From: Candidatus Thalassospirochaeta sargassi
GTDB taxonomy: Bacteria > Spirochaetota > Spirochaetia > UBA9216
DNA length: 64,000 bases
Assembly (NCBI GenBank): GCA_028532855.1
Contig: JAQQAL010000011.1
Coordinates: forward strand, 434,001-498,000
Reading direction: 5' to 3'
Below the pieces are notes generated by a model, which ran no database searches, had not been told where the DNA came from, and saw only the letters and a list, made by a program, of their open reading frames with translations. The position numbers and the translations under genes were made by a program. This document shows positions 56,650 to 62,773 of this stretch, in pieces (positions within the stretch are counted from its first letter, which is position 1; every line of letters starts with the position of its first letter).

Positions 56650-56693
56650 GCACTTATCGGCCATTGACAGATAAGTGCCTGTCGGTGTATTCT
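56650..56693 (+). promoter_or_regulatory. Promoter and palindromic operator of the pyr operon
   Basis: TTGACA (56664-56669), an 18-base spacer and TATTCT (56688-56693) form a strong promoter 24 bases before the pyrD start. GCACTTATC (56650-56658) and GATAAGTGC (56670-56678) are perfect nine-base inverted copies that bracket the -35 box. This is an ideal repressor site. The leader is too short for PyrR-type attenuation. Confidence 0.7.
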
Positions 56694-56717: not shown

Positions 56718-57659
56718 ATGAAGAACGAAATAAGGACAGAATTTTTAGGTGTTGAATTGAGTTCACCGCTGGTGCTGCCGGCCGGTGTCCTTGATATTTC
56801 GTTTTCAAGTATGAATCAGGTATCCGCCGTGGGTGCCGGTCTTGTTACCACAAAATCACTTACTATAGAATCCCGTAAAGGCCATGATGGCCCTGTTGTC
56901 GCTGAAGTTGAAGGCGGAATGCTGAATGCGATGGGTCTGTGTAATCCGGGAATTGATGCCGGCCTTGAAGAGTTGAAACTTCTTAAGACTGCAGCCGAGG
57001 CTGATGTAGAAGGCCCTGGCAACTGTCCCGTGAACGTAAGTATTTTTGCTACCGATGTAAATGGTTTTAGTGACCTTGCTGAACGTGTAAATAATTCAGA
57101 AGCTGATTTTCTTGAACTGAACCTGTCCTGCCCGAATGTAATGGACGAGTTCGGTGTACCTCTTGCAGCATCAGAAAAGACAGTGGCAGAAATTATTACA
57201 GCTGTGAAATCAGTCTGTGTAAAACCTGTAATTGCTAAGTTGTCCCCGAATGTTACCAGCCTTACACGAATTGCCGGTGCGGCGGCTGAAGCGGGTGCTG
57301 ATGCGCTGTGCATGATAAATACCCTCGGTCCCGGACTTGAGATTGACATTGAAGCAGGACGGCCTGTTTTATCGAATATAAGCGGCGGGCTGTCGGGTCC
57401 CTGTGTGAAGCCTGTAGCGCTGCGGCTTGTTTATGAATGCCGGAAATCGGGGCTCAGCCTTCCGATTATCGGGATGGGCGGAATTACAACTGGCGAAGAT
57501 GCTGTTCAGATGCTGATGGCCGGGGCCGATTTAGTCGGTGTCGGGACGGCCGTTTATTATCGCGGCCCCGGGGTTTTCGGACTCATTAATGAGGAATTAT
57601 TATCCTTTCTCAAAAGAAAGGGTTTAGAATCTATTACGGACATTAATCGAATTATTTAG
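56718..57659 (+). CDS. pyrD: Dihydroorotate dehydrogenase B, catalytic subunit
   Basis: The ATG at 56718 (behind GTGGAAGG) gives 313 residues; the longer frame would cover the promoter. SPLVLPAGVLD, NLSCPNVMDE with the catalytic-Cys region, VIAKLSPNVT, GGLSGPCVKPVALR and GMGGITTGEDAVQMLMAGA match class 1B PyrD, the FMN subunit that pairs with PyrK and uses NAD+. First gene of the pyr operon. A terminator-like hairpin lies directly after its stop. Confidence 0.94.
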   Translation: MKNEIRTEFLGVELSSPLVLPAGVLDISFSSMNQVSAVGAGLVTTKSLTIESRKGHDGPVVAEVEGGMLNAMGLCNPGIDAGLEELKLLKTAAEADVEGPGNCPVNVSIFATDVNGFSDLAERVNNSEADFLELNLSCPNVMDEFGVPLAASEKTVAEIITAVKSVCVKPVIAKLSPNVTSLTRIAGAAAEAGADALCMINTLGPGLEIDIEAGRPVLSNISGGLSGPCVKPVALRLVYECRKSGLSLPIIGMGGITTGEDAVQMLMAGADLVGVGTAVYYRGPGVFGLINEELLSFLKRKGLESITDINRII

Positions 57660-57692
57660 CCGGATCATTATTTAATGATTCGGTTTTTTTTT
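57660..57692 (+). terminator. Terminator-like hairpin between pyrD and pyrK
   Basis: CCGGATCATTA and TAATGATTCGG (57660-57683) pair over eleven positions including one G-U pair with a very short loop, followed by nine T. It starts at the base after the pyrD stop codon and ends 24 bases before the pyrK start, inside an otherwise tight operon. It may be an internal attenuator or a leaky terminator. Confidence 0.75.
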
Positions 57693-57716
57693 AGTATTTT
57701 GCGAACGGAGAGATGT

Positions 57717-58643
57717 ATGATAAAAGACAAAAGAACAACCCTGCCGATAGCACGGATAGTGGAAGAGACAGAAAATGTTCGAACCTTCACCTTCAGAATG
57801 GATGTGAAGGCTGCTCCAGGACAATTCATTATGCTCACAGATTTTAAAGGGGGAGAAAAGCCTTTTTCAATCTCCGATAATATGCTGGAAGATGGTAAGA
57901 ACGGCTATCTTTCGGTTTCGATAAAAAGAATCGGTGATTTTACTAGAAGACTGTTCGATATGAAAGCCGGCGATATTGTAAGCATTCGAGGCCCCTACGG
58001 TACCCCGTTCTTTATTCCGGGCAAGCCGGACGAAAAGACACCGGAAGTGGTCAGCAAAATTAAACCGGCTGATTTCAGACCGGTGCTATGCGGCGGGGGC
58101 TTCGGGCTTCCTCCTCTTTATCTGCTGGCGAAACGCCTGCTTGAAGCCGGGGTGCCGGCAAAAAATATTAAGGCGGTTGGGGCTGGCCGCAGTGAGGCGG
58201 ATCTGCTTTTTGAGCAGCAGTTTACCGGCTTGGGAATCCCCTACACTGGAGCGGCAGAAAGCCTTGATGATGTATCTGCTGCGGCTTCCCTGGAGGGCGG
58301 CTGTGGTCGAATTTGCGGAACGGCTGCCGAAGCACTGACTGAGATTGCAACCGAAACAAATTTTGTCTATGCATCGGGTCCGGATCTGATGATGAAAAGC
58401 CTGATTCCCCAAATGCCGCAGGATACCGAATACCAGTTCCTTTTTGAGCGCTACATGAAATGCGCAATAGGAATATGCGGCTCATGCGCTACCGACCCCG
58501 GCGGAATAAGAATCTGCAAGGAAGGTCCGGCTCTCTGGCGGCATCAGGTTGAGCAGCTTGAGGACTTTGGCGTATACCGCAGAACAGCCAGCGGCGCTAT
58601 AGAGCTATTTGAGAACAGGCTTGCGGGCAGGGATCGGGCATGA
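57717..58643 (+). CDS. pyrK: Dihydroorotate dehydrogenase electron transfer subunit
   Basis: The ATG at 57717 behind CGGAG gives 308 residues; the in-frame extension to 57675 would translate the terminator hairpin. An FAD-binding beta-barrel (FTFRMDVKAAPGQFIML), an NAD-binding region (LCGGGFGLPPLYLLAKRL) and a 2Fe-2S site with Cys249, Cys254, Cys257 and Cys267 are all present. It passes electrons from PyrD to NAD+. The length is slightly greater than the usual 260 residues. Its stop overlaps the pyrC start (ATGA). Confidence 0.93.
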   Translation: MIKDKRTTLPIARIVEETENVRTFTFRMDVKAAPGQFIMLTDFKGGEKPFSISDNMLEDGKNGYLSVSIKRIGDFTRRLFDMKAGDIVSIRGPYGTPFFIPGKPDEKTPEVVSKIKPADFRPVLCGGGFGLPPLYLLAKRLLEAGVPAKNIKAVGAGRSEADLLFEQQFTGLGIPYTGAAESLDDVSAAASLEGGCGRICGTAAEALTEIATETNFVYASGPDLMMKSLIPQMPQDTEYQFLFERYMKCAIGICGSCATDPGGIRICKEGPALWRHQVEQLEDFGVYRRTASGAIELFENRLAGRDRA

Positions 58644-59965
58644 TTATTAGAAATGCTATGCTGCAGCAGGGGCTCTGCGATATCCAGGTAGCGGATGGAC
58701 TTATAAAAGAGATTGCACCGGTGAGAACTTTGCCGTCTGCTGATGAGGATTACGATGCCGAAGCAAGAATTGTAATTCCCGGAATGATAGACCCCCATGT
58801 ACACATGCGCTGTCCGGGGATGGAGAACAAGGAAGACTGGGTTAGCGGATCCTGGGCTGCATTGGCCGGGGGCGTTACAACTGTTTTTGATATGCCGAAT
58901 TCATTACCGGCAACAGAAAATCTCGAGGCTCTGGAGCTGAAACGTCTTGCAGCAGCGAAGGCTGATGAAGCTGCAGCATCCGGGGGCTATGCTGTTCCCG
59001 GCCGGATGTACTGGGCGGGCTGCTCTCCGGAGACTGTTCAGCTGCTTCCTGAACTGCTGTGTGAAGCGGATGTTGCCGGGTTAAAGCTGTTCTTTTCCGA
59101 AACGAGTTCTAATTCGAGCAGCACGGATATCAACTTTATAAGCAGGGCATTTGCTGCTGCAGCGGAAGCTGGTAAACCCGTGGCCGTCCACTCTGAACTG
59201 GGTGCGCTTTTAAACGGCGGTTCGGAGTGCTCATCATACCTTGAATCTGCCCCCCTCATTCAGCATAACAGCCGGCGGCCGGCAGGAGCTGCAGTTGCGG
59301 GAACAGCCCTAGCGCTTGAGCTGGCGGCCGTAGCAGGCTGCAGGCTTTATGTCTGTCACATCTCCACCATGGCGGAGTTCGCGATGATCAGAAAACACAA
59401 GGAAGCATACGGGGCTGATTCGGTTTATGCCGAACTGACTCCCCACCACCTTCTGCTCGATGAAAATCATATCGTAAAAGGCGGTTTTGATTCATGGGCA
59501 AAGGTAAATCCCCCCCTGCGGTCTATCGCTGACCGCGAAGCTGCGGCAGAAGCTCTTCTTGATGGGACGGTTGATGTAATCGGAAGCGACCATGCTCCGC
59601 ATCTTTTAACAGATAAAACTATGGATACAAGGGATTTTCATGAATGTCCATCAGGGTTTCCCGGCCTGGAAACAGAACTCGGTTTTATTGCAGGATTTCT
59701 AAAAGCTGAGGTTCCGGGAAATGAATCGGAATGGATAGGACGTCTGTGCAGGCTTACAAGCTCCCGGGCCGCAGAGATTTTCGGTTTATCCGGTCTTGGA
59801 GAGATTAAAGCGGGAAACAGGGCAGACCTTACTATCCTTAATGGCCCTCAAAGGGTAGATTCGGACGGGTTCATGACTAAAGCAAAATATTCGCCGTTTA
59901 ACGGTATGAAATCAGATATATCAGTATACAAAACCATTGTCGGAGGAAAAATAATTGGACAGTAA
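58640..59965 (+). CDS. pyrC: Dihydroorotase (type I)
   Basis: A 441-residue amidohydrolase with the metal ligands His53 and His55 in [19 protein letters not shown], a GLKLFFSE lysine segment that fits the carbamylated Lys, and GSDHAPH with the catalytic Asp near residue 315. It cyclises N-carbamoyl-aspartate to dihydroorotate. Length and motifs fit the long bacterial type I enzyme. The 3' end overlaps the pyrEF start by 11 bases, with CGGAGGAAAAATAA inside pyrC serving as the next ribosome site. Confidence 0.94.
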
Positions 59966-61391
59966 GAAGAAAGAATTTATCAAAGGACTATTTGAAATCG
60001 GGGCGGTGAAGTTCGGGCGCTTCACCCTTAAGAGCGGTATTGTCTCGCCTTTTTATCTGGATCTGAGAAGAGTTCCGTCTCATCCGGGTCTGCACAGCCT
60101 TATGTGTGATATGCTTTCAGAGCATGCAGCTAAGCTGAACTTCGATTGTGTACTGGGAATTCCCTATACCGCGCTCCCTTCTGCGGCATTAATAGCCGAA
60201 AAGCTTCAGAAGCCCCTCTTTATGATTCGTAAGGAAGTAAAAACCTACGGTGCGGGCGGTAAACTTGTGGGTGACCCGGATATTAAAGGCAGCTGTCTGA
60301 TTGTTGATGATTTAATTACCACCGGCGGATCAAAATATGAGACAGTCGATGACCTGAAGGCGGAAGGTTTCGAGGTTGAAGACATCCTGGTTGTTGTGGA
60401 CAGAAGTGCAAATGCAGAAGCCGAACTTAAAGACCACGGACTTAAACTGCACAGCCTCATATCGCTTGATGATATCGTAGAACTCCTTACAGCTGATGGA
60501 AGTCTTACCTCTGAAAAGGCTGCTGAAATCAGACAGTTTACTGCCGACCTGGCAGGTGGAAAACTACAGCCCGCCGCTGAGGCAGAAAACGCTGAACAGA
60601 AACCTCAGGTTAATACTAACAGCTTGACTGAAAAACTTCTTGCGGTAATGAAGCGTAAAAAAACAAACCTTATTCTCTCGCTTGATACTGAAGACCCGGA
60701 TGAGTTTTTCTCCATTCTTGAATCAACAGCGGAAAAGATTGCAATGGTTAAGACCCATGTTGATATTATCAGGGACTTTACCCCCGACTTTATTACCAGG
60801 CTTCAGGCGCTTTCAAAAAGCGGTGATTTTCTGATTTTTGAAGACCGCAAGTTTGCCGACATCGGCAACACTGTTAAGCATCAGTTTTACGGTGGAGTTT
60901 ACCGCATCGCCGAATGGGCCGACTGTGTCACTAGCCATCTTATTGCCGGCGCCGGTACTGTACAGGGGCTTTTCCCCGATGGCGAAGATTCAATGCAGGA
61001 AGGCAGGCCGCAGGCTGCATTCTTGCTGGCACGTATGTCGAGTAAAGGGAATCTTATAACGGAAGAATACAGCAGAAATGTTATTGCTGCCGGAAAAGAG
61101 AACAGCAGCCTTGTTTCTGGCTATATCGGACACGGAAAAGATGCCAGTGATATAAAAAACTACAAAGCGATGATTCCTGAAGGACAGCTTCTGCTGATGC
61201 CCGGGGTGAAGCTTGAGCGGGGTACTGATAATCTTGGACAGCAGTATCTGACTGTGGAGGAGGCTATAGAGGGCGGAGCCGACTGCGTTATTGTCGGTCG
61301 GGGAATAATAAAGGCTGATAATCCTGCTCAGGAAGCTGAGGTTTATCGCAGCCGTGCGTGGAAGGTTTTTCAGGCCAGGGAGGGACAATAA
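59955..61391 (+). CDS. pyrEF: Bifunctional UMP synthase (orotate phosphoribosyltransferase-OMP decarboxylase fusion)
   Basis: A 478-residue fusion starting at TTG 59955. Residues 1-200 are orotate phosphoribosyltransferase with the PRPP motif [15 protein letters not shown] (115-129) and a KEVKTYG loop. A 20-residue Glu/Ala/Gln linker follows. Residues about 222-475 are an OMP decarboxylase with Lys266 in VKTHVD and the catalytic Asp297, Lys299 and Asp302 in [11 protein letters not shown]. The wording of the decarboxylase ([25 protein letters not shown]) is that of eukaryotic UMP synthase, not the usual bacterial DxKxxDIPNT type. Order OPRT-ODCase also matches animals and plants. It catalyses the last two steps to UMP. 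Confidence 0.95.
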
Positions 61392-62315
61392 ATGTCCATA
61401 GGCTTAAAGAATAAACATATTATCTCGATGAGAGATCTGGACAGATCGGATCTGGATCTGCTGGTGGAAACAGCCGGAGCAATCGAAGAAGGACGCATTA
61501 AACCCGACATGGCAGGCAGAATTGCCGCATTGCTGTTTTTTGAACCGTCTACACGTACAAGTTTCTCATTTGATTCAGCAATGAAGCGAATGGGCGGTGA
61601 AACTCTGTTGATGAAGGGTACTGGCAGTACTTCTGTTCAGAAGGGTGAAAGCTTCAGCGATACGCTTAGAACAATAGAGCGATACTGCGATATCATTGTA
61701 ATGCGCCATGCAGTAGAGGGGGCTGCCCGCTTTGCATCAGAGGTCGTAGGCCTCCCTGTTGTCAATGCCGGAGACGGTGCCAATCAGCATCCGACCCAGG
61801 CGCTGCTTGATCTATACTCAATAAAGAAAACCCACGGCACCCTTGAGAAACTGAAAATAGGTCTTGTAGGCGATCTTCGATTCGGAAGGACCGTGCATTC
61901 CCTTGCGCAGGCGCTTGCTCCCTATAATCCGGAGTTTTATTTCATATCGCCTGGATTTCTCGAAATGCCTGAACACATCAAAGCGGAACTTACTGCGGGT
62001 GGCGTTAAATATACTGAGCTGAAAGAAGTTGATTCAGTAGTACCCGAGCTCGATATTATGTATGTGACAAGGGTACAGCGTGAAAGATTCGCCGACCCGG
62101 AAGATTATGAAAGGCTGAAAGGTTCGTACATAATTACCCTGGATACGATTAAAGATGCAAAAGAGGGTATGAGGATTCTTCATCCGCTTCCGAGGGTTGA
62201 TGAGATTGCTGAAGAGGTTGATGCTTCACCTCACGCATATTATTTCGAGCAGGCGGAAAATGGTGTCTACATGCGCCAGGCCATATTATCAATTCTGACG
62301 GGAGCGGTAAAATGA
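61392..62315 (+). CDS. pyrB: Aspartate carbamoyltransferase, catalytic chain
   Basis: The 307-residue protein has the carbamoyl-phosphate site FFEPSTRTSFSFDSAMKRMG near residue 50, the HPTQALLDLYS motif near 134 and the aspartate-binding MYVTRVQRERF near 225. It condenses aspartate with carbamoyl phosphate, the first committed step. The length and adjoining pyrI fit the class B enzyme (2 trimers plus 3 regulatory dimers). It begins at the base after the pyrEF stop and overlaps pyrI by four bases. Confidence 0.96.
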   Translation: MSIGLKNKHIISMRDLDRSDLDLLVETAGAIEEGRIKPDMAGRIAALLFFEPSTRTSFSFDSAMKRMGGETLLMKGTGSTSVQKGESFSDTLRTIERYCDIIVMRHAVEGAARFASEVVGLPVVNAGDGANQHPTQALLDLYSIKKTHGTLEKLKIGLVGDLRFGRTVHSLAQALAPYNPEFYFISPGFLEMPEHIKAELTAGGVKYTELKEVDSVVPELDIMYVTRVQRERFADPEDYERLKGSYIITLDTIKDAKEGMRILHPLPRVDEIAEEVDASPHAYYFEQAENGVYMRQAILSILTGAVK

Positions 62316-62773
62316 AACAGTTAAAGGTAGATGCAATTAAAGACGGTACGGTAATAGATCATATTCCGGGCGGAAAAGCGGTACAGGTTCTGAAGATCCT
62401 CGGTGGAGGAAAGGAGGCTACAGTCAGCATAGGAATGAACCTTAACAGCTCGAAACTCGGAAAAAAAGATATCGTCAAGATTGAAAATCACGAACTTTCA
62501 GCTGATCAGGTAAACAGGATTGCAATAATAGCGCCGACAGCTTCCATCACAATTATCCGGAACTACGATGTAGCAGAGAAGCGGAAGGTAGAGATTCCAG
62601 GCAAGATTGACAATATCACCCACTGCCCGAACCCCAACTGCATTACAAACAAGGAAGATATTCGAACGCTGTTTGACAGGTATCGTGGCGCGGATGATGA
62701 CAAGACTGAATTTATGTGCCATTACTGCGAGCGGATATATCCTGCAGATGGCCTAAAGATTAAGGTCGGCTGA
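62312..62773 (+). CDS. pyrI: Aspartate carbamoyltransferase, regulatory chain
   Basis: The 153-residue protein has the nucleotide-binding N-terminal domain (KDGTVIDHIPGGKAVQVLKIL) and four zinc cysteines (105, 110, 136, 139) in HCPNPNC and FMCHYC. PyrI binds ATP, CTP and UTP and gives the catalytic chain its feedback control. The operon ends here and overlaps the opposing hydrolase gene by 14 bases, with no terminator visible between them. Confidence 0.96.
   Translation: MKQLKVDAIKDGTVIDHIPGGKAVQVLKILGGGKEATVSIGMNLNSSKLGKKDIVKIENHELSADQVNRIAIIAPTASITIIRNYDVAEKRKVEIPGKIDNITHCPNPNCITNKEDIRTLFDRYRGADDDKTEFMCHYCERIYPADGLKIKVG

Follow-up and report, generated by a model that had tools for sequence, protein, structure and literature searches.

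The window analysed here, a stretch of 64,000 nucleotides from the bacterium Candidatus Thalassospirochaeta sargassi (Spirochaetota), carries a gene that is highly likely to encode a bifunctional UMP synthase (UMPS) homologous over its full length to the animal and plant enzyme, and to represent an old, ready-made and shared fusion that displaced separate pyrF and pyrE genes. In the textbook view, animals and plants have OPRT followed by OMP decarboxylase (ODC), and kinetoplastids, oomycetes, diatoms and some cyanobacteria have the opposite order (PMC2705460). Enzymes of this kind are known; the host group is unexpected and the host range unusual and poorly recorded, and a literature search for papers on OPRT-ODC fusions in spirochaetes found none. 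Now that the animal and plant fusion is seen in Saprospira as well as in five lineages of spirochaetes, with both domains sharing ancestry, the origin of the eukaryotic UMPS becomes testable.

The fused gene is a single open reading frame with zero internal stop codons (Table 1). Both domains exceed the curated cut-offs: the Pfam families OMPdecase and Pribosyltran match residues 237-462 (5.6e-47) and 57-159 (6.8e-10), and the NCBIfam models for pyrF and pyrE match with 1.4e-48 and 3.7e-38, respectively. The earlier note had read this frame as OPRT followed by ODC in the animal and plant order, with decarboxylase motifs including IVGRGII, inside a co-directional operon with PyrB and PyrI, and each of these readings holds. 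The TTG start lies 8 bases downstream of GGAGG, and is likewise preceded by a GAGG-containing stretch in three relatives from the same family (G003, G006 and G005). In these three and in G001 the frame is intact, with no break between the domains; the copy of another family member, G004, is broken off by the contig end. Since the same unbroken frame recurs in family genomes, it is neither an assembly join nor a product of contamination. GC content and third-position GC of both halves equal those of the other pyr genes, and a recent import, as judged by base composition, was rejected.

Table 1. Features of the pyr operon and of the fused UMP synthase gene (window coordinates).
Feature	Position	Strand	Evidence
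pyrD (dihydroorotate dehydrogenase, type 1B), first gene of the operon	56718..57659	+	NF005574, 298.7 bits (cut-off 269)
pyrK (DHODH electron transfer subunit)	57675..58643	+	NF000796, 1.3e-56
pyrC (dihydroorotase)	58640..59965	+	TIGR00857, 6.8e-81
GGAGG ribosome-binding site of UMPS, within the end of pyrC	59942..59946	+	read directly from sequence
Fused UMP synthase (OPRT-ODC), 478 aa, TTG start	59955..61391	+	ORF, Pfam/NCBIfam, phmmer
OPRT domain, about residues 1-199	59955..60551	+	phmmer against human UMPS OPRT (2wns), 145 bits
PRPP-binding motif of 12 residues, 115-126	60297..60332	+	residue comparison
Linker, about residues 200-221	60552..60617	+	variable; low model confidence
Eukaryotic-type OMP decarboxylase domain, residues 222-478, stop included	60618..61391	+	phmmer
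Decarboxylase motif of 11 residues, 296-306, with catalytic Asp297/Lys299/Asp302 (yeast D91/K93/D96)	60840..60872	+	residue comparison
DNLGQQY, residues 425-431, with phosphate-binding Gln429/Tyr431	61227..61247	+	residue comparison
IVGRGII, residues 446-452, with Arg449 (yeast R235)	61290..61310	+	residue comparison
pyrB (aspartate carbamoyltransferase, catalytic)	61392..62315	+	TIGR00670, 366.8 bits
pyrI (aspartate carbamoyltransferase, regulatory)	62312..62773	+	TIGR00240, 172.9 bits

The operon is compact and co-directional, in the order pyrD-pyrK-pyrC-UMPS-pyrB-pyrI, and its neighbours abut or overlap by 4 to 11 bases, with the exception of a 15-base gap between pyrD and pyrK. The UMPS start overlaps the pyrC stop by 11 bases, and pyrB begins directly behind the UMPS stop, with no base in between. 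For pyrD the ATG at 56718 was preferred to an upstream TTG at 56664. An Rfam search for an RNA leader of the pyr operon gave no match, and a promoter scan of the operon scored no better than shuffled sequences.

On sequence grounds, the gene very probably encodes a working bifunctional UMP synthase, because the catalytic residues are kept and the genome (G000) has no other OPRT or OMP decarboxylase. All of the catalytic residues checked are conserved for both activities. In the decarboxylase half, 14 of 14 residues compared are identical to yeast URA3, including those of the reaction (yeast D37, K59, D91, K93 and D96; here D244, K266, D297, K299 and D302) and those that bind phosphate and base (yeast S154, Q215, Y217 and R235; here S362, Q429, Y431 and R449). 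The OPRT half retains K26, R99/K100/K103/R156 (also given as R92/K93/K96/R150) and the DD...TTG motif, within a stretch of 16 residues. The N-terminal domain is predicted to convert orotate and PRPP to OMP, from which the C-terminal decarboxylase, joined via a flexible linker, would form UMP by removing CO2 through the Lys-Asp-Lys-Asp mechanism. The linker differs in length among relatives and is modelled with low confidence. A structure model of the whole protein, built from 6 sequences only, is of moderate quality (mean pLDDT 75.5); in a Foldseek search its two halves found the ODC and the OPRT of human UMPS, respectively, as best matches.

A second OPRT above the family cut-off was not found in the genome, and candidates for a separate pyrE or pyrF were rejected, as the matches are APT-like and HxlA-like genes. 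The second OMPdecase-family match is a stand-alone HxlA-like gene, read as hexulose phosphate synthase, which adjoins an HxlB-like sugar isomerase gene (L002:1477-2679, contig C21); the two are apparently a ribulose monophosphate pathway pair. carB is encoded elsewhere in the genome (full-length match, 1381 bits). Steps 1 to 4 of the pathway are present and the fused gene is the sole one for steps 5 and 6; therefore UMPS would supply both, if UMP is made de novo. The enzyme would be made from one operon with those of steps 2 to 4, standing in for separate PyrE and PyrF.

Sequence comparisons place both halves with eukaryotic enzymes. The decarboxylase scores 200 bits against human, 185 against yeast and 32 against E. 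coli (phmmer), with identities of 46% to human, 42% to Coffea, 40% to yeast and 19-23% to bacterial PyrF. For the OPRT half the scores are 145 bits (human UMPS OPRT, 2wns), 122 (Leishmania) and about 70 (best bacterial PyrE). The yeast probe matched its PDB entry over the full length; for the plant enzyme, the trees use the printed letters of 8u0z (Coffea arabica) instead of the probe. With animal and plant UMP synthases (human, Coffea arabica) the window enzyme has in common the OPRT-ODC order, the eukaryotic-type decarboxylase and the catalytic residues; unlike them, it is bacterial, lies in a pyr operon with prokaryotic pyrD/K and pyrB/I, and branches outside the sampled eukaryotes. Yeast Ura3 is also a eukaryotic-type decarboxylase but lacks the OPRT fusion. 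Bacterial PyrF (E. coli, Bacillus) catalyses the same reaction and belongs to the same superfamily, but is unfused, about 20% identical and marked by a DxKxxDIPNT motif. The kinetoplastid and cyanobacterial fusions (Leishmania 3qw4, PRK05500) likewise hold the two activities in a single chain, but in the order ODC-OPRT and with a class-2 decarboxylase (DxKRGDIxxT); the window gene, with its OPRT-ODC order and in a genome lacking any TIGR02127 match, does not belong to this type.

Phylogenetic trees bear out this kinship. With bacterial PyrF as the root and three eukaryotic ODCs (human, Coffea and yeast) included, the ODC tree separates the eukaryotic-type clade from bacterial PyrF with support of 100/100, and a smaller sequence set agrees; the window decarboxylase thus falls outside the ordinary bacterial PyrF clade. 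Human, Coffea, yeast and Saprospira, the last on a long branch, group together (100/99), and several spirochaete lineages stand next to them. A clade uniting the spirochaetes with human and Coffea is rejected (AU p 0.002), and the tree neither establishes nor excludes a single clade of all spirochaete ODCs (AU p 0.42). Once the long rows of E. coli and Corynebacterium, a source of disturbance, had been left out, the OPRT tree joined the spirochaete fusions with human and Saprospira (99/97). A later OPRT tree, with one eukaryotic fused-type sequence (human), repeats this grouping (97/91), apart from reverse-fusion OPRTs, Leishmania and ordinary PyrE, with the window's family (f1) and f80 as sisters (98/95). 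Both halves give the same grouping, and one fused ancestor is therefore favoured over independent fusion. Regarding the interpretation in the earlier note, the eukaryotic kind and kinship of the decarboxylase stand; the predicted nesting among eukaryotes does not, at least among the three eukaryotic ODCs sampled.

The earlier note had named a fusion shared by relatives as support for its reading, and the fusion is indeed found well beyond the window. Within f1 it occurs in five genomes (G000, G003, G005, G006 and G001); no ODC at all was found in G002, which is 86% complete. Among the 296 genomes of a first phylum sample, the fusion was seen outside f1 only in genus g90 of family f46, which belongs to another class, where it is confined to two of 46 genomes (G070 and G156). 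A profile search of 148 genomes from the window's own class recovered three further families that the first sample had missed, f56 (G302), f71 (six genomes) and f80 (G382). Overall, the fusion is present in families f1, f56, f71 and f80 and in one genus of f46. The identity of the G302 sequence was established by BLAST, and the trees leave it out. In f71 (L138, L139, L142, L144 and L145) the otherwise strict 11-residue decarboxylase motif has a variant reading, with the catalytic D and K kept.

Beyond Spirochaetota, the search covered plasmids, phages, viral contigs and E. coli; a contig scan with single-sequence patterns reached two congeners only. Beyond the phylum, the fusion turned up in Saprospira plasmids (Bacteroidota; NZ_CP116809, NC_016936), as a bacterial OPRT-ODC gene of the same family, 35% identical to the window's over the full length. 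It differs in being plasmid-borne, adjoining a dihydroorotate oxidase gene and lying closer to eukaryotes in the trees. The gene is annotated only as pyrF, a label that conceals its OPRT half. In Saprospira grandis Lewin, the plasmid has, next to the intact gene, another ODC fragment that is truncated and lies behind a KilA-N gene (L047:1891-2181), which suggests a partial duplication. Viral carriage of the fusion was considered and rejected, as phage and plasmid matches were OPRT only, Saprospira excepted, and a scan of IMG/VR viral contigs found no eukaryotic-type ODC.

The background on which the fusion occurs is that of class-2 pyrF (TIGR02127), which is found above cut-off in the class of the window (94 of 148 genomes) and in that of g90 (32 of 46, sister genus g100 included), and in none of the fusion-bearing f1 or g90 genomes. 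In g90 the operon reads pyrB-I-D-K-C-UMPS, with the fused gene occupying the place of pyrF and without a visible pyrE ahead of pyrB; f1 and f80 have the order K-C-UMPS-B-I, and in f71 and f56 the fused gene stands apart from other pyr genes. The best reading of these gene orders is that a fusion already formed took over from pyrF and pyrE. Outside the family, the PyrD of g90 (58% identical) and its PyrB are the nearest to the window's among the genomes of the first phylum sample, and the PyrB of f80, which was absent from that sample, is 62% identical; parts of the operon may have moved together.

A ready-made fusion, related by common descent to the eukaryotic and Saprospira UMPS, would have entered or arisen in Spirochaetota long ago, and would then have displaced the class-2 pyrF (and pyrE) usual in the phylum. 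Its presence in four other lineages of spirochaetes means that the fusion is neither a purely eukaryotic invention nor a recent import. Decarboxylase identities between f1 and f46, f71, f56 and f80 are 52-57%, about as low as those of human, plant and yeast among themselves (52-63%), and any transfer must therefore be very old; the depth of this divergence says only that the gene is old in the phylum. An old lateral transfer somewhere in the history of the gene is likely, in either direction; eukaryote to spirochaete, bacterium to eukaryote or a longer chain of transfers are all possible.

Among these histories, an ancient acquisition of UMPS by spirochaetes from a eukaryote, perhaps a protist, with later spread from one spirochaete lineage to another, is a plausible but tentative proposal. 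The eukaryotic type of the decarboxylase and the patchy occurrence of the fusion on a class-2 pyrF background would fit it, and with three eukaryotic ODCs and one eukaryotic OPRT in the trees, nesting within unsampled protists is compatible with them. However, the spirochaete sequences lie outside the group of human, Coffea, yeast and Saprospira, and the base composition of the gene is that of its operon. Alternatively, the fusion could be of bacterial making and have reached the eukaryotic ancestor by transfer, with Saprospira as a further recipient or donor. This somewhat doubtful scenario draws on the trees of both domains, where eukaryotes and Saprospira make up one subgroup next to several deep-branching spirochaete lineages. 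It might then be conjectured that the animal and plant fusion is bacterial, already fused in a lineage with descendants in several present-day families of spirochaetes, and was received whole by the eukaryotic ancestor. Against this, the root of the eukaryotic-type clade is not secure, as the outgroup branch is very long (2.6), and few bacterial phyla were covered.

An independent fusion of a spirochaete OPRT to an acquired eukaryotic-type decarboxylase, raised in the earlier note, appears improbable. The OPRT half is 39% identical to the human one and equally close (36-39%) to some of the reverse-fusion OPRTs of spirochaetes, and f1 and f46 are only 37% identical in OPRT compared with 57% in ODC, as such an event might leave them; yet the AU test rejects placing f1 among the reverse-fusion OPRTs (p 0.019), and the OPRT half joins human and Saprospira just as the decarboxylase does. 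Contamination, an assembly artefact or a pseudogene can practically be dismissed, given five genomes with the same frame and operon, a contig of at least 498 kb, the lack of another OPRT or ODC in the genome, and no support found for such a reading.

The single phylum Spirochaetota harbours three different UMPS fusions, animal-like and kinetoplastid-like ones among them. The reverse order, which the earlier note mentioned for kinetoplastids and some bacteria, occurs in many other spirochaete families, where class-2 pyrF is often fused as ODC-OPRT and then resembles the Leishmania enzyme; examples are L022 (369 bits against Leishmania UMPS), L019, L021, L028 and others in families f2, f7 and f10. 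The third fusion, in genus g53 of family f25 (L034-L045), consists of an ordinary PyrF (DLKFHDIPNT) followed by OPRT in one frame of 452-458 aa. Family f20 has the operon pyrE-pyrB-pyrI-(pyrD-pyrK fused)-pyrC-class-2 pyrF, in which PyrD and PyrK form a single frame of about 585-620 aa (L108:4922-6784, L110:7095-8852).
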